This document shows positions 7,342-40,375 of a stretch of 64,000 nucleotides of DNA, in pieces. The first letter of the stretch is position 1. Each line of letters begins with the position of its first letter. Source of the stretch: Bdellovibrio sp. ZAP7 (GTDB taxonomy: Bacteria; Bdellovibrionota; FAC87; UBA2466). The translations under genes were made by a program, and so were the position numbers. Below the pieces are notes generated by a model. The model did not search any database, was not told the DNA's origin, and saw only the letters and a list, made by a program, of their open reading frames with translations. Location of the stretch: positions 1 through 64,000 of the forward strand of contig CAMCTJ010000007.1 in assembly GCA_945878405.1 (NCBI GenBank), in the 5' to 3' direction.

Positions 7342-8946
7342 ATGGTGAGATGCTGGACCCTCTGGGTCCTGGGGCTTTGCCTCTTTTCGCAAAGCCTTAC
7401 CGCGAAGGAAAAAGCGGGAGAATGGATTCTCACAATAGATAGCCCACGGAATTGGGAAACGGTCGCAAAATCCTTACGAGGTCGGGCTAAGTTCATTCGG
7501 TTCTTGGGGAGATCCCAGCGCTATGCTCTGGTTTCGGCTCCCAAACCTTTGACATTTTTCTGGGGCCTTCTTCCGCCTCATCTCTTAGGTATTCAACCCA
7601 ATTTTCTTTACGCCACTCTTGATCAAGTCGATCCCCAAGTCAGCCAAAGCTGGGCTCTTTATAATCAAGGACAATCCATTTCTCATTGGGGAACGGGTTT
7701 AAGCGGCGTCGACATTCATGCCGATGGGGCCTGGAAATCTACCACCGGGTCCAAAAGGGTAACGGTCGCGATTTTAGATTCTGGAATAAATCGATTGCAC
7801 GAAGATCTTCAAAAAAATATCTGGAGTCATCCCATTGAAAGTGAGGCGAATCAAAAAGACGACGATGGAAATGGTTGGAGTGATGATACGTGGGGGTGGA
7901 ATTTTGTGCACCAAAACAACGACCCCATGGATGACAACGGTCACGGTTCGTTCTGTGCGGGAATCATTGGGGCTGATTGGGAAAATGGGAAAGGCTCAAA
8001 GGGAATCAATCAGTTTGTAAGTTTACTATCTGTGAAAATACTGGACTCGTTGGGCTTGGGAAGTACGGCCACTGCCATTGAGGGTATCGATTATGCCGTT
8101 CGAAACGGAGCTCATATTATCAATATGAGTTGGGGTGGTGTGCGATTTGATCCAGCCCTTTATGAAGTGATTCGAAAGGCAACCCAAAAAGGGGTTTTGT
8201 TTGTTGCTGCAGCTGGAAACTCGGGTGTTAACAATGATGAGCGGGAAAATGCGATTTATCCAGCTAGCTTTGAACTTCCTGGATTGATATCCGTCGCAGC
8301 TTATGACCCGCGAGGAGAAAGGGCGACGTTTTCAAATTACGGAAAAAAGCGAGTTCACTTGGGCGCTCCTGGAATTGAAATATTTGGAACGGACCTCAAC
8401 GGGTATGGTTTTCGAAGTGGGACTTCTTTTGCAGCTCCGCATGTCAGCGGAACCGCAGCTCTTCTCAAAGCGCTCTGGCCGGCAATGACTGGTCTCGAAC
8501 TAAAGAATCGAATTCTCAAAACTACAAATCCGCTTCATCCGTATGAAATGAACTATTCTCAAACAGGGGGAATGGTCCATGCCGAGAATGCGATCCGCAG
8601 TTTTTATCCAGAGAAACCAAAGCCGCCATCAAAATGGCGAAAAGTCCCTATTCACTGGGAGACACCCCACCCGTATTTAGCTAATTCAGAATTAAGGCTC
8701 AAAATTCATGAGCCGGGAGCTTCTCGAGTACGTGTTCATTTTAAAAAAATGGACGTTGAAAAAAAACATGACGTAGTTACTTTGCGGGATTTAACTGGCA
8801 GAAAAATTATCGATTATTCGGGGCTAGAAGAGGATTCAATGAGTGCAGAAGCATTCGGAGATGAACTCCAATTGGAATTCATCTCCGATTACAATCGGCA
8901 GGCTTATGGAGTCGATATCGACTACTACGAAGCCGCCTTCGAATAA
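7342..8946 (+). CDS. subtilisin-like serine protease (S8 family), secreted
   Basis: A 534-residue exported subtilase. The signal peptide (about 1-21) is followed by a propeptide-like region (about 22-120). The catalytic triad is visible: Asp146 in AILDSG, His201 in NGHGSFCAG and Ser362 in SGTSFAAPHVSG, with oxyanion Asn293 in AAAGNSG. An acidic insert (DDDGNGWSDD) between Asp and His resembles a calcium-binding loop. About 120 residues after the catalytic domain may form a small C-terminal domain. A GGAG ribosome site lies before the ATG. For a predatory or scavenging bacterium it would be a hydrolase; it could instead process the two secreted neighbours. Confidence 0.92.
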   Translation: MVRCWTLWVLGLCLFSQSLTAKEKAGEWILTIDSPRNWETVAKSLRGRAKFIRFLGRSQRYALVSAPKPLTFFWGLLPPHLLGIQPNFLYATLDQVDPQVSQSWALYNQGQSISHWGTGLSGVDIHADGAWKSTTGSKRVTVAILDSGINRLHEDLQKNIWSHPIESEANQKDDDGNGWSDDTWGWNFVHQNNDPMDDNGHGSFCAGIIGADWENGKGSKGINQFVSLLSVKILDSLGLGSTATAIEGIDYAVRNGAHIINMSWGGVRFDPALYEVIRKATQKGVLFVAAAGNSGVNNDERENAIYPASFELPGLISVAAYDPRGERATFSNYGKKRVHLGAPGIEIFGTDLNGYGFRSGTSFAAPHVSGTAALLKALWPAMTGLELKNRILKTTNPLHPYEMNYSQTGGMVHAENAIRSFYPEKPKPPSKWRKVPIHWETPHPYLANSELRLKIHEPGASRVRVHFKKMDVEKKHDVVTLRDLTGRKIIDYSGLEEDSMSAEAFGDELQLEFISDYNRQAYGVDIDYYEAAFE

Positions 8947-8955
8947 AAGCTGTAC

Positions 8956-9600
8956 TTACCGACGCTTGGTATTCACTAGTTCCTTCTTAGGCAATAAGGG
9001 AACGCTACGATAAGCAATTTGTTGAGAAATGGTATGAGCATTATTTTCCAAGAATCGATTTGAATAATGCCAAGTAGAGATAACTAACAGAGCTGTGAAT
9101 CCGCCCAGGAAAGCCGTTTCTACAAAACCAATTCGAAATTGTTCACGAAGAGAAAAGAATCCTAAGAGGCCCGCCCAGAAGAAAACAAAAAGACTGGCTG
9201 TTTCCATCCAAGGATAAAGATGTGTCAAATGGCGAGCAGTATGAGCCGTTAACACTAAAGTGAAAACAATTGAAAGCCTTCGGAACAAAACTCTCTGACT
9301 TGAGGAGTGCCCGATGAAGGATCCAGCAAACCAAACGAGTACGGTAATAAGAAAAGCAGCGATCACGGTACAGATAAGCTTGGTGGAAACCATGAGCCAC
9401 ATAGCTAAATCTCTTCCGATTCCTAATCTAAAAGAGAGCGCATCGGCAAAATTTTCAATCAGGAGATGGTTGCGGCCAATGTGCGCTTCAACGCCGGCCA
9501 CAATCAGAAAAGCGATCATCAACCAAGTATGGTGGCTCGACCACTGAAGTTGATTCACGAATGCATTTGGCTTAACAAAAAATCTTACCCCTTGTCTCAC
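8956..9600 (-). CDS. multi-pass inner-membrane protein, unknown function
   Basis: About 214 residues with five hydrophobic segments: WLMIAFLIVAGVEAHIG, a long one around LICTVIAAFLITVLVWFAG, LSIVFTLVLTAH, LFVFFWAGLLGFF and FLGGFTALLVIST. The pattern resembles small Yip1-type membrane proteins, but I see no decisive motif. I prefer the GTG at 9600, which has a GAGGT ribosome site four bases upstream; an earlier GTG at 9645 has none. It is convergent with the subtilase (9-base gap) and divergent from the lipoprotein gene at 9891. Confidence 0.65.
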   Translation of the reverse strand: MRQGVRFFVKPNAFVNQLQWSSHHTWLMIAFLIVAGVEAHIGRNHLLIENFADALSFRLGIGRDLAMWLMVSTKLICTVIAAFLITVLVWFAGSFIGHSSSQRVLFRRLSIVFTLVLTAHTARHLTHLYPWMETASLFVFFWAGLLGFFSLREQFRIGFVETAFLGGFTALLVISTWHYSNRFLENNAHTISQQIAYRSVPLLPKKELVNTKRR

Positions 9601-9637
9601 ACGTACCTCACAACGACGTTGGCCTTCGTCCCCAAGG

Positions 9638-9761
9638 GTGTACACTGCAAGTGTGTGCCAAATCGAAATGGGCGTCTGAGAGCGAAAAAGGGGTGTCGAA
9701 CTTTTTGACAGGGGCCCCGGTTAGGGCACCTGAAGGGCCAAGAGGCCTAATGTGTATACAC
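9638..9761. promoter_or_regulatory. intergenic region with GTGT/ACAC palindromes
   Basis: The divergent gap between the membrane protein and the lipoprotein gene holds three related symmetric elements: GTGTACAC at 9638-9645, overlapping ACACT-GCA-AGTGT at 9642-9654, and GTGTATACAC at 9752-9761. They could be sites for one dimeric regulator. A TTGACA lies near 9708, but no convincing -10 box follows at the right distance. Confidence 0.25.
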
Positions 9762-9890
9762 CTTGAGCACGAGCTCACGGCCTTAACAAAATCTGAGCGC
9801 GAAGAGGCAAGAAAAGCCAATAGTTTCAGGGGCCAGACTATGGAACGTCCATTGCAACTGTATTCTTCAAACAGCTTTAAGGACGCACCT

Positions 9891-32213: not shown

Positions 32214-32846
32214 TCAACTTTTTAACTCGTATCTGAGCGGCAATTCAAATTGGAGTTGTTGGTAAGTGTAATCAGAAGGAGGAAGGGGTACCGTCTCTAA
32301 CTTTTGTAGAAAACGAACTGCCTCTTGTTGGAGCAGTTTCGGAGCATCGGATTCTGCCAAACGAATATCCTCGAGATGTCCCTCGGGAGTGACCTGAAAA
32401 CGAACTTTAACAACTCCAGATAATCCCAAGTCCTTTAAAGAACGGGGGAACACCTTTGCGGAGTCTAAATAGGCATGAAGGATTGAAGCGTATTGAGTTG
32501 AACTCCCCCCTTGGCCAATTCCTTTTGAATCCGTATGGGTTGCAGCAGGGGACTGGGCGAGTTCGGAGCTGGTTTTTTGATGCCCCTTGTTTTGAGTGGG
32601 AATATCAAGGGGACTGCTACCGGTCGTCGGGGGTCGGCTGGAACGCATCGCAAAGCTGGGGAAAAAAGAAACCTCAGTTGCATTTGCTAATCCGCCTTTT
32701 CTTCCCAAAAGTTTGTCAAAAGCTCCGGGAGCCAAGGGTGAAGCCACTTTATAAAACAGAAGTAAATGCACAAAAATACTGACAAAACCAGCTAGCTGGA
32801 GTTTGATCGAATCAATCGAAAACGTGGTCTTGCAAATCGTGGTCAT
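32214..32846 (-). CDS. TonB-family energy transducer
   Basis: A 210-residue TonB-like protein: short cytoplasmic tail, one membrane helix (about 17-38, LAGFVSIFVHLLLFYKV), a Pro/Ser/Thr-rich periplasmic linker and a C-terminal TonB domain (about 125-210: SGVVKVRFQVTPEGHLEDIRLAESDAP in part, VTPEGHLEDIRL shown). It is divergent from the TonB-dependent receptor unit at 32889 and also heads the BMP transporter genes, its stop lying next to their first start. It probably energises the nearby receptor. Confidence 0.85.
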   Translation of the reverse strand: MTTICKTTFSIDSIKLQLAGFVSIFVHLLLFYKVASPLAPGAFDKLLGRKGGLANATEVSFFPSFAMRSSRPPTTGSSPLDIPTQNKGHQKTSSELAQSPAATHTDSKGIGQGGSSTQYASILHAYLDSAKVFPRSLKDLGLSGVVKVRFQVTPEGHLEDIRLAESDAPKLLQQEAVRFLQKLETVPLPPSDYTYQQLQFELPLRYELKS

Positions 32847-32888
32847 GGGGCATTAAACCTTAATCAAAGTCCTCGAAAGGAGCAAGTT

Positions 32889-33278
32889 TTGGTTCTCTTT
32901 ATTTTAGGGTTTTTTTTGTTGGGCGCAACGGCAAGTGGAGAGGTTTCTCTCTCTTTCCAAGGGACCGACAAAGGGCGACCTTGTTTTCTTTATGTCCACA
33001 CGGAGGGGGAAAAAAGCGGGACCTACGAAGTTGAAGTCTCCACAAGCTACGAACATGAGGGACAAGGCCTTGGAAAAGTAGTCTTGAAATTCGATCCACA
33101 CTCACAGGGTAAAATCCTGCAATGGCAAGAGGCCAACACGAAAGAGTTTTTGAAGGTTGTGCTAAAAAAAGCAAGTGAAAGTTTATCCGAACCCTCTGCT
33201 TTCCGGTTAAAGTGGATGCACTTTGATCATTTACATGATGCTACTTGCAGCGAACTTAAACTGGTTGGTGAAGAATGA
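32889..33278 (+). CDS. small secreted protein preceding the TonB-dependent receptor
   Basis: A 129-residue protein of unknown family. It starts at a TTG with a strong AAAGGAG site 7 bases upstream and has a hydrophobic signal peptide (about 1-17, LFILGFFLLGATASG). The mature part is beta-rich with two cysteines (RPCFLY and ATCSEL) and a His/Asp/Cys cluster near the end (MHFDHLHDATC) that could bind metal. It overlaps the receptor start by four bases, so it is co-expressed with it and may be a periplasmic partner. Confidence 0.65.
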   Translation: MVLFILGFFLLGATASGEVSLSFQGTDKGRPCFLYVHTEGEKSGTYEVEVSTSYEHEGQGLGKVVLKFDPHSQGKILQWQEANTKEFLKVVLKKASESLSEPSAFRLKWMHFDHLHDATCSELKLVGEE

Positions 33279-35437
33279 AAAAACTTCTAGGTTCCTTAAT
33301 TTTGATTGTCACCTGTAGTGTTTTTGCAGAAGGACAGGAAGTTGGTTCGCTTCCGGAGATCGTGGTTCAAGAAGAAGGATCAGGTTCAAGTTCGGAGTTA
33401 GATAAGTCTTCAGTCGTTCCTACAATTAAACTTCCTAAAAAGAAGCTCGAACAGAAAAAGGCACCCAATTTATCTGAAGCAATTTCGGGGGAGAGCGGGG
33501 TGGATAGTCAAACCTCGTGTGCCACCTGCGGCTCAAAACGAATTACAGTGAATGGCCTACGCGGTGAACATACCACTATTTTAGTAGATGGTGTTCCCTT
33601 GCATTCGGCTGTTTCCAGCTTTTATGGAGTCGACGCAGTTCCGCTATCTGGAGTTGAGTCTATTGAAATCAGTCGAGGTTCCGGAGCCTCATTAGTTGCT
33701 CCTGAGGCAATTGGTGGCGTTTTAAACATCCTCACTGAAACACCACATAAGAATGAAGTGGATTTAAATTTGGCTTCTGGGTCTTCTCAAAATTGGCTTC
33801 TCAGTGGCGCAGTTTCAGATACTACTTTTATGAAGAATACCCGAGTGTTTGTTTCGGGCCAGTGGAATCGACAGGGGTATTGGGATTCTGATCGTACGGG
33901 AGTATGGGACGTAGACAAAAATGGAGTTGCTGACGCTCCTTTCTTCTCAAATGCGGGCATCTTGGCAAAAGGTTTAATCGATTTGGGAGCTCGAGATAGT
34001 CTAGAGCTCAGATACGGTTGGCAAAATGTATCCATTTTGGGAGGAACGGTGGATGGCACCAAACCGACAACTTTTCTGCCCATTGTGGAGCTCCCAAAGT
34101 TTCAGGATAACAATGTTGAAAAACCTTATTTAGATGATCAATTAAAAATTGCTGACACGATAAATCTATCTCGACAAGAAGCTGTGGGACGTTGGCGCCA
34201 TCGACTGGGCGAAAGCTCCCAGCTTCAAGTAACCTCCAGCGCAGCTTGGCAGGATCAGGATTCGATATATTTTCATGGATACGATTATCGCAATCGAGAT
34301 CTTCTTGCGTTTCAGGACGTCCGGGTATCTACGCCCCTTTCTTCGGAACACGTGATGAGTTTTGGAGCCGACGGTCGCTATGAGCGGATGCAGTCATTTT
34401 CTCAGAAGCTCTATGACATAAAGGGGCTTCCCCCCGATGATTTTAAGTTTCGAAATGTGGCTCTGTTTGTTCAGGATACCTGGTCGCCGAGCCTAAATCA
34501 TGAATTTAACATCGCCGGTCGTTTGGATTATTTGGATATCGATTGGCCTTTTCAAAAATCAGAAGAACGCCAAGTGCGGAAAGTCTTAGGGTCGCCTCGA
34601 TTTTTCTGGAAATGGAACCAGTCTTCGAACTGGACTGCCCGAATTTCCTATGGGCGAGGATATCGAGCGCCTTTAAGTTTTTTTGAATCCCAACACGGAT
34701 TGAGTGAAAATGGATTCACTATTGGTCTTACGGAAATTGAAACTGCACACTCGGTCGGAGTTTCCGAAAACTATACGAGCGGCGCTTGGGATTGGAATGC
34801 CAGTGTATACGGCACTCAGTTAAGTCATTTAGCCTACGCTGCTGATCCAGTCGATGAGTTCAGTCCTGCAAAGTTTGAAAACCTAAACAGGGACGTAACA
34901 GTCCTCTCGTCAGGAATCTCTGGCACTTACCGATCTGGATCCTGGCTTGTGGAATTAGGACTAGAGGATTTCCGATTACCTCAAGACTATAAAAAGCTTC
35001 TTCCTGTAGCTGCAGTTGAACAAAGAGCGCGAATCCGGGCTGAGAAAAAGGTTGGCGCAGGGTGGGATGTCTTTGTGTCTGCTCAAATCACTGGGCCAAG
35101 AAATTTATCAGATTATGGTTATGACAAACACTATGTGAGTTTTGAGCCTGTCGATACAGAATTAGGACCCGTAGATACTTTGAAGGAGTTGAAAAATCAG
35201 AAGGCTCCTCTGTTTGCTACGGTAGATATCGGCACTAACTATCGTCCCTGGAAAAACTGGGAATTGTCTTTAACCGTTCTCAATGCGACTAATTTCACTC
35301 AAACGGGTTGGGGGGATTCCCCCCTTGCCTGGAACCAGCATGGTTCTGATCCCAGTCATTTCCACCTAGATAATTTACATGTCTGGGGGCCCCTGAGAGG
35401 ACGAGTGTTTATGATGTCTGTGAGAGCGACCCTCTGA
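33275..35437 (+). CDS. TonB-dependent outer-membrane receptor with plug Cys pair
   Basis: A 720-residue receptor. Signal peptide about 1-18; a possible TonB box near EIVVQEEG (28-35); plug domain about 45-165 (ITVNGLRGEHTTILVDGVP, SIEISRGSGASL, AIGGVLNIL); then a 22-strand-type barrel ending in ...SVRATL. Before the plug core is SCATCGSKR with Cys82 and Cys85. A His-rich turn near the end (HGSDPSHFHLDNLH) might line the entrance. The substrate cannot be read directly; the Cys pair and His cluster make a metal, a metal chelate or haem worth testing. It is followed with a one-base overlap by a thioredoxin-like gene. Confidence 0.9.
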   Translation: MKKLLGSLILIVTCSVFAEGQEVGSLPEIVVQEEGSGSSSELDKSSVVPTIKLPKKKLEQKKAPNLSEAISGESGVDSQTSCATCGSKRITVNGLRGEHTTILVDGVPLHSAVSSFYGVDAVPLSGVESIEISRGSGASLVAPEAIGGVLNILTETPHKNEVDLNLASGSSQNWLLSGAVSDTTFMKNTRVFVSGQWNRQGYWDSDRTGVWDVDKNGVADAPFFSNAGILAKGLIDLGARDSLELRYGWQNVSILGGTVDGTKPTTFLPIVELPKFQDNNVEKPYLDDQLKIADTINLSRQEAVGRWRHRLGESSQLQVTSSAAWQDQDSIYFHGYDYRNRDLLAFQDVRVSTPLSSEHVMSFGADGRYERMQSFSQKLYDIKGLPPDDFKFRNVALFVQDTWSPSLNHEFNIAGRLDYLDIDWPFQKSEERQVRKVLGSPRFFWKWNQSSNWTARISYGRGYRAPLSFFESQHGLSENGFTIGLTEIETAHSVGVSENYTSGAWDWNASVYGTQLSHLAYAADPVDEFSPAKFENLNRDVTVLSSGISGTYRSGSWLVELGLEDFRLPQDYKKLLPVAAVEQRARIRAEKKVGAGWDVFVSAQITGPRNLSDYGYDKHYVSFEPVDTELGPVDTLKELKNQKAPLFATVDIGTNYRPWKNWELSLTVLNATNFTQTGWGDSPLAWNQHGSDPSHFHLDNLHVWGPLRGRVFMMSVRATL

Positions 35438-35898
35438 TGAAAGAGTTGGTTTTTGTATTTTGCTTTCTGATATCAGCGGCTGGGATCGGATGCATGGAAG
35501 ATGAGCTCTCAGGCCTTATTCCAGTGACCCAAAAGCCGATTTGTATTCGGAGATGGCAAAATGAGCAAATAACTGTGATTTCCGAAGAGGACTGCATTTT
35601 TTGTCGTGAGTTGTTGGAGAGAATGCGAAAGGAAATGCCAGCTATCGAAAGAAAAAGAGTTGAAGTCCTCTGGATCGATTCGAATCCAGCAAGTTGTCTT
35701 AAAAGTTCACAGCAGTTTCCTGAGTTTGGGTCTGCTCGATGTGTTTCCAGAAGAGAAGTGGCTGGGAAATGGGGGGTGAGTTCTACTCCGGTGATGTTTT
35801 GGATTCAAAAAGATAAAAAAATCACACAAAAGGGACTAGTCGATCGAAAAAAGAAACTTCCCTGGATTAGTTCTCCTTCTCGAAGCGTGGTAAAATGA
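35437..35898 (+). CDS. thioredoxin-like envelope protein with CIFC motif
   Basis: A 153-residue exported protein. The N-terminus (FVFCFLISAAGIGC) could be a lipoprotein signal with Cys19, though the lipobox is imperfect. A thioredoxin-like fold is suggested by EEDCIFCRELL (Cys53, Cys56, CxxC) and the cis-Pro region VSSTPVMFW about 70 residues later. Two further cysteines (PASCLK, SARCVS) lie between. It may reduce or oxidise disulphides of neighbours such as the receptor's Cys82/Cys85. It starts at the receptor stop and is 4 bases from the MCE ATPase. Confidence 0.7.
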   Translation: MKELVFVFCFLISAAGIGCMEDELSGLIPVTQKPICIRRWQNEQITVISEEDCIFCRELLERMRKEMPAIERKRVEVLWIDSNPASCLKSSQQFPEFGSARCVSRREVAGKWGVSSTPVMFWIQKDKKITQKGLVDRKKKLPWISSPSRSVVK

Positions 35899-35902
35899 GC
35901 AG

Positions 35903-36694
35903 ATGAGCCCTATCCCGTACGAACCGCAAATTGAGATTTCTCATCTGGGGTTTGCGTTTTCCGCTGATAAAACTCACTTGTTAAAAGAGATTAACTTAGC
36001 TCTACGTGCGGGAGACAGATTGGGCATCCTGGGGCCCTCCGGTTCGGGCAAATCTACTTTATTGAAACTTGTATCGGGGCTTCTCATCCCTTCTCAAGGC
36101 GAGATACGTGTGGATGGCGAGTTGATAAAACGTCAGGGATTAAAACAAAGTCGTTCTTTCTCGCAAAAAATGGCGATGAGTTTTCAAAAAGGTGGACTCT
36201 TAGATGCATACAATGCCTGGGAAAATATCGATTTTGCCCTAGCGGAACTGACGGATTTTTCGGAATCCGAACGGAAGGAACGTTCGTTTCATTTCCTTAA
36301 GCAAGTGGGCCTTTCTGGATCTGAAAATAAAAGGCTGAAGGAGCTAAGTGGTGGCATGTTAAAAAGGCTCTCCCTCGCTCGAGTCTTTGCTCTCAGTCCC
36401 TCGATACTCCTTCTGGATGATCCCACGGCAGGGCTCGATCCTGTCACTGCAGATGAAATTGTTTCGATTATTGAGGAGTATGCTGAAAACAGGAGTGTAA
36501 TTCTGATTTTTGCCAGTGGGGATTTGGCTGTAAGCTTTCGGTTAGCCAATAGATTAGGATTTTTGTGGAACGGCTTTCTCACGTACGAACAATCTGTTTA
36601 CGATTTTAAAAAATGCGATAATCCCGCTATCCAACAGTTCATCCGAGGGGGATTGAGCGGGCCATTAACCGAACCAGTTTATGCTCGAACTTAA
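35903..36694 (+). CDS. MCE/Mla-type ABC ATPase, catalytically degenerate (NBD1)
   Basis: A 263-residue MlaF-like ATPase. Walker A is intact (GPSGSGKST, Lys50), as is the signature LSGGM (148-152). Walker B reads LLLDDPTAGLDP, with Asp173 where the catalytic glutamate should be, and the H-loop reads FASGDLA, with Gly206 instead of the histidine. The C-terminal FIRGGLSGPLTEP tail matches MlaF proteins. It overlaps the next ATPase by 14 bases. With the next gene it probably forms a heterodimer in which this protein supplies the working signature motif but not the hydrolytic residues. Confidence 0.9.
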   Translation: MSPIPYEPQIEISHLGFAFSADKTHLLKEINLALRAGDRLGILGPSGSGKSTLLKLVSGLLIPSQGEIRVDGELIKRQGLKQSRSFSQKMAMSFQKGGLLDAYNAWENIDFALAELTDFSESERKERSFHFLKQVGLSGSENKRLKELSGGMLKRLSLARVFALSPSILLLDDPTAGLDPVTADEIVSIIEEYAENRSVILIFASGDLAVSFRLANRLGFLWNGFLTYEQSVYDFKKCDNPAIQQFIRGGLSGPLTEPVYART

Positions 36695-37400
36695 ATCGAT
36701 CACAAAAAAATTCGCAAACAAGGTGGTACTGAATAGTGTCAACCTAAGACTACAGCGAAGCCAGATTCTTTTTGTTTTGGGAAGATCCGGGGTGGGAAAA
36801 TCGGTTCTTCTAAAAACGATTGTTGGGCTTATCCCTCAAGATAGGGGAGAAGTGTGGATCAATGGGGAGAAAACGGATCCCCTAAACGAAGAGAAAATGG
36901 TTACGGTTCGGCAGAAATGCGGATTGGTTTTTCAAATGCCAGCCTTACTCGATTCCTTAACGCTCCAAGAAAATCTAGAGTTTGGCTTAGAAGGAAATCA
37001 GAAATCAGGACTTAGGAAATATTTAGATTGGGTTCAGCTTTCAGAAGGTGTTTTGTCTCGGTATCCCAGCGAAGTTAGTTTTGGAACCCAAAAGAAGGTA
37101 AGTGTTGTTCGGACGTTGCTACGAGAACCTCAGTTCATTTTATTTGACGAACCCACGACCGGTCTTGATCCCGTCTCCCGAGAAGTAACAAATCAAATGA
37201 TTCGAAACGTTGTAAAAGAGTCAGAAACGGGTTGTGTAGTTGTTTCACACGACATTCAGAGTGCAATTGAACTTGCCAACTCGATCATGCTTCTCGACGA
37301 GGGGAGGGTCGTTTTTGAGGGAACTCCTGAAGCTTTTCGGAATTCCGATCAGGGGTTAATCAGGTCGTTTTGTAAGGGGATGGTGGTTCTCGATGCCTGA
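36681..37400 (+). CDS. MCE/Mla-type ABC ATPase with degenerate signature motif (NBD2)
   Basis: A 239-residue MlaF-like ATPase. Walker A is GRSGVGKSVLL, Walker B is FILFDEPTTGLDP with the catalytic Glu157, and the H-loop has His190 in VVSHDIQS. The signature motif, however, is VSFGTQKK (132-139) rather than LSGGQ. This is the mirror image of the defects in the preceding ATPase. It overlaps the first permease by 8 bases. Alone it should be unable to form two normal ATP sites. Confidence 0.9.
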   Translation: MLELKSITKKFANKVVLNSVNLRLQRSQILFVLGRSGVGKSVLLKTIVGLIPQDRGEVWINGEKTDPLNEEKMVTVRQKCGLVFQMPALLDSLTLQENLEFGLEGNQKSGLRKYLDWVQLSEGVLSRYPSEVSFGTQKKVSVVRTLLREPQFILFDEPTTGLDPVSREVTNQMIRNVVKESETGCVVVSHDIQSAIELANSIMLLDEGRVVFEGTPEAFRNSDQGLIRSFCKGMVVLDA

Positions 37401-38163
37401 TTTAAAAGAGCTTATGGGCAGCATCGGCAACTGGTTTCTTTTTTCGAAAAGAGTGATCGGACTCTTTTTCAGGGAGGGGATTAGCCGGAAAGTGTTGATC
37501 CAGCAGATGTACCAAGTAGGGGTTCGTTCCATGGTCACCACGTGTGTAGCGGGGATTTTCGTGGGTGCCATTCTCGCAATACAAATCAATCTTCAACTAA
37601 AAGATTTTGGGGCACAGAGCTTCTTAGGGGGCCTGAGTACCTCCACAACCATTAGGAATTTAGGACCGGTATTGATAGCTTTTCTGTTATCCGGCCGAGT
37701 GGGAGCTTTTTCGTCTGCAGAACTGGGCACCATGGCTATTACTGATCAGTTGAACGCTATCCGGTGCCTGGGGCTAAATCCGCTCGCAGTGATTATTATG
37801 CCGCGACTAGTTGCTCTTACGATTTCAAGTTTTTTGCTTTTGGTATTGGGCCTGGGATTAACCGTTTTTGGTGGAATCATTATTTCCTCCATTTATTTGA
37901 ACGTGAATCCATTACAGTTTGTATCTCACATACCCCAATTTGTTTCGGGATCGAGTATTTTCATTGGGGTACTAAAAAGCTTTCTCTTCGGATTGATCAT
38001 TGGAACGATTTCCTGTTTCGTAGGTTACAAAACCACAGGGGGAGCTGAAGAGGTGGGTCGGTCTGTGAGAAGAACGGCCGTCGTGACTTTGGTCTCAATC
38101 ATCGTGATTGATTTCTTGGTTTCATTTGTTGTGGAGTCAGTCACCCAATTAATAATGAGTTGA
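37393..38163 (+). CDS. MlaE-family permease, first of two
   Basis: A 256-residue permease of the MlaE/YrbE type with about five membrane helices. The conserved block around GPVLIAFLLSGRVGAFSSAE and the MAITDQLNAIRCLGLNPLA region, then IMPRLVALTISSFLLL, matches the family. MlaE proteins carry phospholipids between membranes with MlaD and MlaF. It differs from the next permease in length and sequence, so the channel is likely a heterodimer, as with actinobacterial YrbEA/YrbEB. Confidence 0.9.
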   Translation: MPDLKELMGSIGNWFLFSKRVIGLFFREGISRKVLIQQMYQVGVRSMVTTCVAGIFVGAILAIQINLQLKDFGAQSFLGGLSTSTTIRNLGPVLIAFLLSGRVGAFSSAELGTMAITDQLNAIRCLGLNPLAVIIMPRLVALTISSFLLLVLGLGLTVFGGIIISSIYLNVNPLQFVSHIPQFVSGSSIFIGVLKSFLFGLIIGTISCFVGYKTTGGAEEVGRSVRRTAVVTLVSIIVIDFLVSFVVESVTQLIMS

Positions 38164-38173
38164 GGTTCTTTGA

Positions 38174-38953
38174 ATGAGAGCGTTAGGAAACTGGGCAATC
38201 AGGGAGTGGGGCCAGCTGGCATATCCTACTGGACTTTTCTGGGCCTCTATTGTGGGACTGCTTAAGTCTCTAACTAGGGCTTCATTAAGAGGAAAAGAAA
38301 TCACAAAGCAGATCTATGAATGTGCTGTGATGAGCCTTCCTGTCATCGCTTTTTCACTGGGAATCGTATCTTTGATGAGTGTGCTTGAATTTTCGTGGCA
38401 TATGAAGGTCGTATTAAAGCAAGATGCTTTAGTTCCTGGTTTCTCCTTGATTCTAACGATAAGAGAAGTGGCTCCTGTAGTGACTGCGATGCTTTTGGCG
38501 TCACGAGTGGGAGCCTCCATCTCTGCTGAGATGGGAGTGATGAAGATCACCGAACAACTAGATCAATTAAAATTATTAGCGGTTTCTGAAGTGGACTATC
38601 TTCTCATTCCACGCTGGATTGGGTGTATAGTAGCAAATGTCACTTTAACTCTGATATCAATCGCTATCGCTGGAATCGTCACAGTATTTATTGCGGCTCG
38701 TTGGATGGGTTACCAGCCAGCGGAGTTTTACAATTCCTTGCTTTTGTTCACGACTGGTCATGACCTGGAAGGGGCTTTGCTTAAGGCCCTCTGTTTTGGT
38801 ACTTTGATTCCCTTTGTTTCTGCAAGTTATGGATTACGCTGTGCTCAGGGGAGTCAAGGGGTGGGAGATGCAGCGACGCAAGCAGTCGCGAGAAGCAGTT
38901 TATTGATTATTATTTCGGATTTATTAATCAATTCAATTTGGTGGATGCCGTAA
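38174..38953 (+). CDS. MlaE-family permease, second of two
   Basis: A 259-residue permease with the same block (REVAPVVTAMLLASRVGASI, then MGVMKITEQLDQLKLLAVS and LLIPRWIG). It is the partner of the preceding permease. It starts 10 bases after it and ends the tightly packed part of the operon; a 111-base gap with a promoter-like -10 follows. No STAS (MlaB) or MlaC homologue is present nearby. Confidence 0.9.
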   Translation: MRALGNWAIREWGQLAYPTGLFWASIVGLLKSLTRASLRGKEITKQIYECAVMSLPVIAFSLGIVSLMSVLEFSWHMKVVLKQDALVPGFSLILTIREVAPVVTAMLLASRVGASISAEMGVMKITEQLDQLKLLAVSEVDYLLIPRWIGCIVANVTLTLISIAIAGIVTVFIAARWMGYQPAEFYNSLLLFTTGHDLEGALLKALCFGTLIPFVSASYGLRCAQGSQGVGDAATQAVARSSLLIIISDLLINSIWWMP

Positions 38954-39064: not shown

Positions 39065-39838
39065 ATGGAACAACAGCGTAAAGAATTTTGGGTCGGCACA
39101 CTCGTTCTTTTTTCTATTGGATTGCTTGTCTTTTTTGCTTGGCTCTTAGGTTTAGTTCAACCTTTGGGCAAGCAACTTCATTTATCGGTCTTCTATCAAT
39201 TCGCTGGGGGCGTTGAGGTCGGAGCTCCTGTACGAGTGAGCGGGGTAAAAGTTGGAAAAGTTGAAAAGATAGAATTTTTAGCGACTCCCGCTTCGGATCT
39301 TTTGGCCGGAACATCAGTTAAGGTTCGCGTTGGCGTAGACCCCGAAGTGAAAAAACTCGTTCGGCAAAATTCAAAATTTTATATCAACATTGCGGGAATT
39401 ATCGGTGAACGCTATTTGGAAATCACACCTGGCAGTGAGGATAGTCCCATTTTAGAAGATGGCGCAGAGGTGAGGGGGATGGACCCCCCTCGAGTAGACC
39501 AGCTTTTATCGCAAGGCTATGGAGTTTTTGGACGAGTTCAAGAGTTTCTGGAACGAAATGAAAATACAATGCAGGACCTTCTTACAAGTGTCCATTCGCT
39601 GATGACCGATACCAATGTCATTTTAAAGAAATTAGATAAGAAAAAAGTTAGTCAACTCATTGAAAATCTGAATACCGTGAGTGCCAATTTCGCTGTCTTA
39701 TCTCAACAATTGAGAAGTCCAAAAAGTTCAAAGTTCATTGATCAGTTGGCCGACTTGGTTGATCGCGCTCATGAAATAGATAAGCCCGCTCTCCAAAAGT
39801 TTCTCCAAGAAGAGGGCGTCAGGGCACGAATTTTCTAG
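39065..39838 (+). CDS. MCE-domain (MlaD-like) periplasmic lipid-transfer subunit
   Basis: A 257-residue protein with an N-terminal membrane anchor (about 9-31, WVGTLVLFSIGLLVFFAWLL) and one MCE domain (about 38-150: VEVGAPVRVSGVKVGKVEKI, GIIGERYLEITPG). A helical, coiled-coil-prone tail (about 160-257) follows, longer than in E. coli MlaD. MCE proteins form hexameric rings that carry lipids. It is the only MCE gene near the transporter, so it presumably works with both permeases. Confidence 0.92.
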   Translation: MEQQRKEFWVGTLVLFSIGLLVFFAWLLGLVQPLGKQLHLSVFYQFAGGVEVGAPVRVSGVKVGKVEKIEFLATPASDLLAGTSVKVRVGVDPEVKKLVRQNSKFYINIAGIIGERYLEITPGSEDSPILEDGAEVRGMDPPRVDQLLSQGYGVFGRVQEFLERNENTMQDLLTSVHSLMTDTNVILKKLDKKKVSQLIENLNTVSANFAVLSQQLRSPKSSKFIDQLADLVDRAHEIDKPALQKFLQEEGVRARIF

Positions 39839-39862: not shown

Positions 39863-40375
39863 ATGAGAATGTTAGTTTTGTTTTTTCTGCTGGTGGCTAG
39901 TGTGTGCCAGGCAGGCTTTCTGGATGACTTTAAAAATGAGCGCCGTTTTGGTGCGGGCGTAGGAGTAGGGGGGCCGTTAAGTGCCTTGGGGTTAGAGATT
40001 GAATTCAATATCAAACCAGAAATCTCCATTGCGGGTGGCTTGGGAACCGGGGGGGATTACTCTAGCTTAGCGGTTAAGGGAAAATACTTTCTTTTGGGCG
40101 ATCAGGTCAGTCCTTACTTTCTTTTTGGTCTATCTAGGTGGTGGAGCCAAGGGAGCACTCAAAGAGACATAGGACCAGCAGTTTTGAAAAATATTTTCTT
40201 AGAGGGAGCTGATCCCAGAAATGGATTTAGTATTTGGACGATGTATCCTGGGGTAGGAGTTCAATTTATTCACGATTCAGGATTTTCTGTTTATTTAGAG
40301 GCTCACTATCTCTTTAAAATTCCAAACTTTGCAAATGGCACCTATGCGGGGATGGGAGTTTCCTGGTTCTTTTAG
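39863..40375 (+). CDS. small outer-membrane beta-barrel-like protein
   Basis: A 170-residue exported protein: signal peptide about 1-18 (ending CQA), then alternating amphipathic strands (FGAGVGVGGPLSALGLEIEF, YFLFGLSRWW, GVGVQFIHDSGFSVYLEAHY) and a C-terminal phenylalanine (GVSWFF), the usual signal for barrel insertion by BAM. It lies 24 bases after the MlaD-like gene and may be an outer-membrane partner of the transporter. No family recognised. Confidence 0.65.
   Translation: MRMLVLFFLLVASVCQAGFLDDFKNERRFGAGVGVGGPLSALGLEIEFNIKPEISIAGGLGTGGDYSSLAVKGKYFLLGDQVSPYFLFGLSRWWSQGSTQRDIGPAVLKNIFLEGADPRNGFSIWTMYPGVGVQFIHDSGFSVYLEAHYLFKIPNFANGTYAGMGVSWFF

Follow-up and report, generated by a model that had tools for sequence, protein, structure and literature searches.

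Complementary motif losses in a conserved pair of MCE-transporter ATPases point to a probable heterodimeric lipid transporter with one complete ATP site

We analysed a 64,000-nt window (positions 1 to 64,000, forward strand, of contig CAMCTJ010000007.1, Bdellovibrio sp. ZAP7) and conclude, with a probability of roughly 0.86, that it encodes an MCE lipid ABC transporter built on an obligate heterodimeric core, which joins two different permeases (TMD1 and TMD2) to two different ATPases (NBD1 and NBD2) that share a single complete ATP site. The motif losses behind this conclusion are observed directly in the translations; heterodimer formation, single-site hydrolysis and the lipid substrate are inferred from sequence, and there is no physical evidence of heterodimerisation. 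The locus is laid out as follows.

35903..36694, + strand: NBD1, ABC ATPase (PF00005), 263 aa, from ORF call and Pfam QFIRGGLSGPLT
36681..37400, + strand: NBD2, ABC ATPase (PF00005), 239 aa, from ORF call and Pfam
37393..38163, + strand: TMD1, MlaE-type permease (PF02405), from Pfam
38174..38953, + strand: TMD2, a second and distinct MlaE-type permease (PF02405), from Pfam
39065..39838, + strand: MCE protein (PF02470/MlaD; Pfam E 7.3e-16), with an N-terminal TM helix, MCE barrel domain and helical C-terminus of about 105 residues, from Pfam and predicted structure
39863..40375, + strand: predicted 8-stranded outer-membrane beta-barrel, a possible outer-membrane partner, from a weak Pfam beta-barrel match and predicted structure

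The two ATPase reading frames overlap by 14 nt and lie directly upstream of the permease and MCE genes, and the locus meets the criteria for an MCE-family (MlaFED-like) ABC transporter; the two permease matches to PF02405 in the window have E-values of 6.8e-61 and 1.2e-48. An NCBIfam search of both ATPases assigned them to no specific family, every match falling far below the cut-off. Just upstream, at 32214-35898 of the window, are genes for a TonB C-terminal protein, a TonB-dependent receptor and a thioredoxin-like protein, an arrangement confined to the same genus.

The ATPase motifs, all on the + strand, are these.

NBD1 residue 44: Walker A, GPSGSGKST (translation)
36344..36358: NBD1 signature LSGGM, residues 148-152; in the proposed live site it would pair with the NBD2 Walker motifs (translation)
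36419..36421: NBD1 Asp173, in the catalytic-Glu column (translation and alignment)
36518..36520: NBD1 Gly206, in the H-loop His column (translation and alignment)
NBD2 residue 34: Walker A, GRSGVGKSV (translation)
37074..37088: NBD2 degenerate signature VSFGT, residues 132-136 (translation)
37149..37151: NBD2 catalytic Glu157 (translation)
37248..37250: NBD2 H-loop His190 (translation)

The residues that a preliminary description of this DNA had listed for both ATPases (Walker A motifs, signatures, D173, G206, E157 and H190) proved exact in translation. Alignment with E. coli MlaF and with the ATPase of the same genome's single-ATPase MCE operon places D173 and G206 in the catalytic-Glu and H-loop columns and aligns VSFGT with LSGGQ. 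Neither of these ATPases therefore carries a complete motif set, and the locus lacks the single ATPase, capable of working as a homodimer, that marks the Mla pathway proper. Each site of an ABC dimer takes its Walker A and B motifs and its Q- and H-loops from one NBD and its signature from the other. A homodimer of NBD1 or of NBD2 would thus contain no complete site, and only the NBD1/NBD2 heterodimer can hold one.

In the mechanism that we propose, NBD1 and NBD2 would form the cytoplasmic layer and TMD1 and TMD2 the inner-membrane layer, the whole carrying the MCE ring. Within a head-to-tail NBD dimer, the Walker A and B motifs and H-loop of NBD2 would combine with LSGGM of NBD1 to give the complete (consensus) site, and the Walker A of NBD1 would face VSFGT of NBD2 in a degenerate site expected to keep ATP binding, with slow hydrolysis or none. 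ATP is thus probably hydrolysed at only one of the two sites, although this has not been measured: the consensus site would fire in every cycle and the degenerate site, by analogy with TAP1/TAP2 or Pdr5, would act as a hinge held by its nucleotide. Lipid would be moved between the inner membrane and the MCE tunnel, in an unknown direction, possibly towards the co-encoded outer-membrane barrel.

The pattern is not peculiar to one genome. A search with MlaE, and then with a TMD1 profile over 369 genomes, gave among the matches listed 149 genomes with a TMD1 match at E <= 3.1e-92 and a handful more between 1e-91 and 1e-78, while the remaining genomes had only matches weaker than about 1e-60, to ordinary MlaE, which makes a clean split. 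In a scan of the named genomes the strongly matching group was Bdellovibrionota, Bdellovibrio bacteriovorus (L078) included. The loci that were fetched reduced to 115 unique operons with a nearly constant order, NBD1-NBD2-TMD1-TMD2-MCE. Four TMD1 genes carry one in-frame stop codon (G268:C479:5635, G254:C41:16700, G320:C5:334022 and G361:C77:3123).

All 115 Bdellovibrionota NBD2 sequences have the catalytic Glu and the H-loop His, and none has Gly at the third signature position, which is Tyr in 97, Phe in 16, and His and Leu in one each. Among 105 NBD1 rows SGGM is retained in every one, and the Walker A Lys in nearly all. The NBD1 His column holds Asn (86), Ser (14), His (2), Thr (2) or Gly (1), so that His is lost in 103/105, and the Glu column holds Asp (79), Glu (25, or 24%) or Ser (1). 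The complementary pattern is found in 105/105 Bdellovibrionota operons with both ATPases, the NBD2s of these operons also retaining the Walker Lys, and all of the losses map to one composite site. By comparison, Glu, His and GG are intact in 89/89 single-ATPase MCE controls (93 rows less 4 that were fragments or members of paired operons). Because the pattern is universal among the paired operons and absent from the controls, it is not due to chance, and its conservation likewise rules out a sequencing error in a single genome.

The complementarity suggested in the preliminary description is thus conserved, in the Bdellovibrionota and in a Myxococcota homologue described below, but the same two exact losses do not recur everywhere, since Glu-to-Asp is not invariant: Glu persists even in the same-genus relative L036, where Ser replaces the His. 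In Bdellovibrionota NBD1 it is the absence of His that is nearly constant, a steadier mark than Glu-to-Asp. Homologues of the kinds that would have refuted the idea were sought and did not appear: no NBD1 of either phylum keeps Glu and His together (0/134), and no NBD2 keeps LSGG (0/115 rows in Bdellovibrionota, 0/19 in Myxococcota).

Tandem permeases occurred on three contigs among the named matches (L091, L100 and L124; Myxococcales, Polyangia and Deltaproteobacteria). Myxococcota-type genomes have a homologous set in a rearranged order, NBD1-TMD1-TMD2-x-NBD2-MCE. Here NBD1 has LSGG with either Asp and His (26/29) or Glu and Ser (3/29), and NBD2 keeps Glu and His with a signature that is mostly FGDGM and otherwise LSDGM or IGDGL, so that the pair has the same complementarity as in Bdellovibrionota by way of other residues. 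An independent-pairs test for mutual exclusion of Glu and His in NBD1 was not significant, there being too few independent pairs. Only these two phyla were surveyed systematically.

In trees, NBD2s of both phyla group together (branch support 96, and 98 without the motif columns), and the corresponding cross-phylum branches have supports of 94 for TMD1 and 97 for TMD2. A branch with an SH-aLRT of 98 sets the NBD1s of both phyla apart; its support drops to 71 once the motif columns are removed, so that the cross-phylum grouping of NBD1 becomes weaker. The simplest reading of these trees would be one ancient duplication of both layers, with transfer between the phyla not excluded. A broader proposal, to which we give slightly less than even odds, is that the two phyla share an ancient, separate MCE class in which both ATPases and permeases are heterodimeric and which has one consensus site and its own barrel, forming a trans-envelope lipid bridge that would be driven by one-site hydrolysis and whose direction might be fixed by the asymmetry.

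The main reading has to be weighed against two others. The retention of Glu by about a quarter of Bdellovibrionota NBD1s and of His by most Myxococcota NBD1s, together with the tolerance of Asn or Gln at the H-loop His in ABCC1 and the Met by which MlaF itself deviates from LSGGQ, could mean that both heterodimer sites are active, with Asp or Asn in NBD1 and an aromatic NBD2 signature tolerated and the asymmetry doing no more than tuning rates. We regard this as improbable, since the defects are confined to one composite site in every operon and, through different residues, in both phyla, and an NBD1 with Glu and His together was never seen, whereas neutral tuning would be expected to strike the other site sometimes. 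The same facts do, however, temper the earlier prediction of one dead and one live site. All defects do lie in one composite site, but 'dead' is too strong and 'degenerate' fits better, because degenerate sites in known ABC proteins usually bind ATP and an H-loop Asn is tolerated in ABCC1; in its Walker half, moreover, the weak site is not fully crippled everywhere, given the NBD1s that keep Glu (25/105) or His (2/105 in Bdellovibrionota, 26/29 in Myxococcota).

Alternatively, NBD1 could stand outside the transport engine as a regulatory pseudo-ATPase, with the work done by an NBD2 homodimer whose signature is relaxed. NBD1 does evolve faster than NBD2, judging by branch lengths, and is unlinked in a few genomes. 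In an NBD2 homodimer, however, both signatures would be degenerate and neither site complete, and a bystander need not keep the Walker A Lys and SGGM that NBD1 almost always retains. The permeases, too, are a conserved non-identical pair, from which the whole transporter core is probably heterodimeric. We therefore consider a regulatory NBD1 very unlikely indeed, and retain the heterodimer with one complete site.

Decay of NBD1 into a pseudogene can also be discounted. Its dN/dS, taken from other family members (dS is saturated for the window's nearest relatives), is 0.02-0.10 in most close pairs and 0.26 at the highest, far below 1, and thus indicates purifying selection. Apparent loss of NBD1 from L063/L173, L198 and L226, where none lies beside NBD2, was likewise rejected, as NBD1 orthologues with DDP and TND are present elsewhere in those genomes; orthologues away from the operon lie at G256:C109:19538-20257, G227:C96:1-693 and G231:C4:12151-12876. 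In L049 a 440-aa opposite-strand ORF with a low-complexity KEPKEP-like stretch (8526-9848) separates NBD1 from NBD2. The two ATPases also differ at their C-termini: an MlaF-like tail containing GP is present in 83/105 NBD1s and 1/115 NBD2s, the window's NBD1 having it and its NBD2 not. Through this tail the two subunits of E. coli MlaF form a reciprocal handshake, and the contacts within the NBD1/NBD2 dimer are therefore probably asymmetric as well.

Structure prediction for the MCE protein gave a high-confidence MCE domain, with MlaD and Mce1 chains as structural matches, and a helical tail of about 105 residues at lower confidence. The barrel was predicted with 8 strands at a mean pLDDT of 92.7, its nearest folds being OmpA/Ail/OprF, and a homologue directly follows the MCE gene in 47/79 operons with enough flanking sequence. 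The predicted tail and barrel, and this gene order, make a bridge from inner to outer membrane plausible, though it has not been shown. Elsewhere in the genome, contig 14 carries a further MCE operon of the ordinary kind, with one complete ATPase and one permease, and contig C5 carries one MlaC, of which there is none in the NBD1/NBD2 operon; MlaA (PF04333) has no match anywhere in the genome, which is an estimated 96% complete. Two further marks of the Mla pathway proper (MlaA-MlaFEDB-MlaC), an MlaA in the genome and an MlaC encoded with the system, are accordingly missing. In the Myxococcota version, a secreted-looking protein encoded between TMD2 and NBD2 (L302:8100-8831) may be the counterpart of the barrel. 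Labelling it a barrel goes no further than a reading of the sequence, because the Bdellovibrionota barrel profile did not match the gene and Pfam assigned it no family.

The system resembles E. coli MlaFEDB (an MCE, or type VIII, ABC transporter) in its homologous NBD (PF00005, LSGGM), permease (PF02405) and MCE protein (PF02470), in the structural match of its MCE domain to MlaD and in the MlaF-like GP tail of NBD1. However, mlaF and mlaE are each single genes in E. coli and MlaF works as a homodimer, whereas this operon encodes two distinct ATPases and two distinct permeases, lacks genes for MlaB and MlaC, has an MCE protein whose helical tail is longer, and has an outer-membrane barrel gene alongside. 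Mycobacterial Mce1 (YrbE1A/YrbE1B, MceG and Mce1A-F) likewise has two different permeases and helical-tailed MCE proteins, but it has a single ATPase, the homodimeric MceG, and six different MCE proteins, in place of two ATPases and one MCE protein here. For MlaF and MceG, then, the premise that the studied MCE systems use one homodimeric ATPase is borne out. So is the likeness drawn earlier to heterodimeric exporters: the motif pattern agrees with the one reviewed for degenerate ABC sites, in which one NBD has lost Glu (often to Asp), frequently with H-loop changes, and the other has a degenerate signature. In TAP1/TAP2, TM287/288, PatAB, the ABCC family, CFTR and Pdr5, as here, the losses are split over two NBDs and one consensus site is left, but these have other folds and are not MCE/MlaE-type transporters.

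Most of what is known of degenerate ATP sites comes from exporters such as TAP and CFTR, and the role of the second, slow site is debated. What would be new, by comparison with these systems, is the presence within an MCE lipid transporter of an asymmetric ATPase pair like that of TAP, degenerate ABC sites themselves being already known. Among the solved ATPases close to NBD1 or NBD2, none carries an annotation that places it in a heterodimeric MCE system, and a literature search of open-access papers (most subscription papers lying outside its scope) found no description of such an asymmetric MCE ATPase pair. That the same asymmetry recurs through different residues in two phyla, and in a lipid transporter whose fold is not that of the exporters, suggests that degenerate sites exist for some general reason. 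Each ATP site and each permease can, moreover, be mutated on its own, which gives a natural way to approach the disputed direction of MCE lipid transport.

Two Myxococcota-type contigs encode MlaF-like fusion proteins, in which a single chain holds two ATPase domains (L262:2454-4004 and L263:6648-8339); both contigs are short, and no MlaE was found on them. The L262 fusion has LSGGM as its first signature and LSAGQ as its second, and the second domain of the L263 fusion has an altered signature region.
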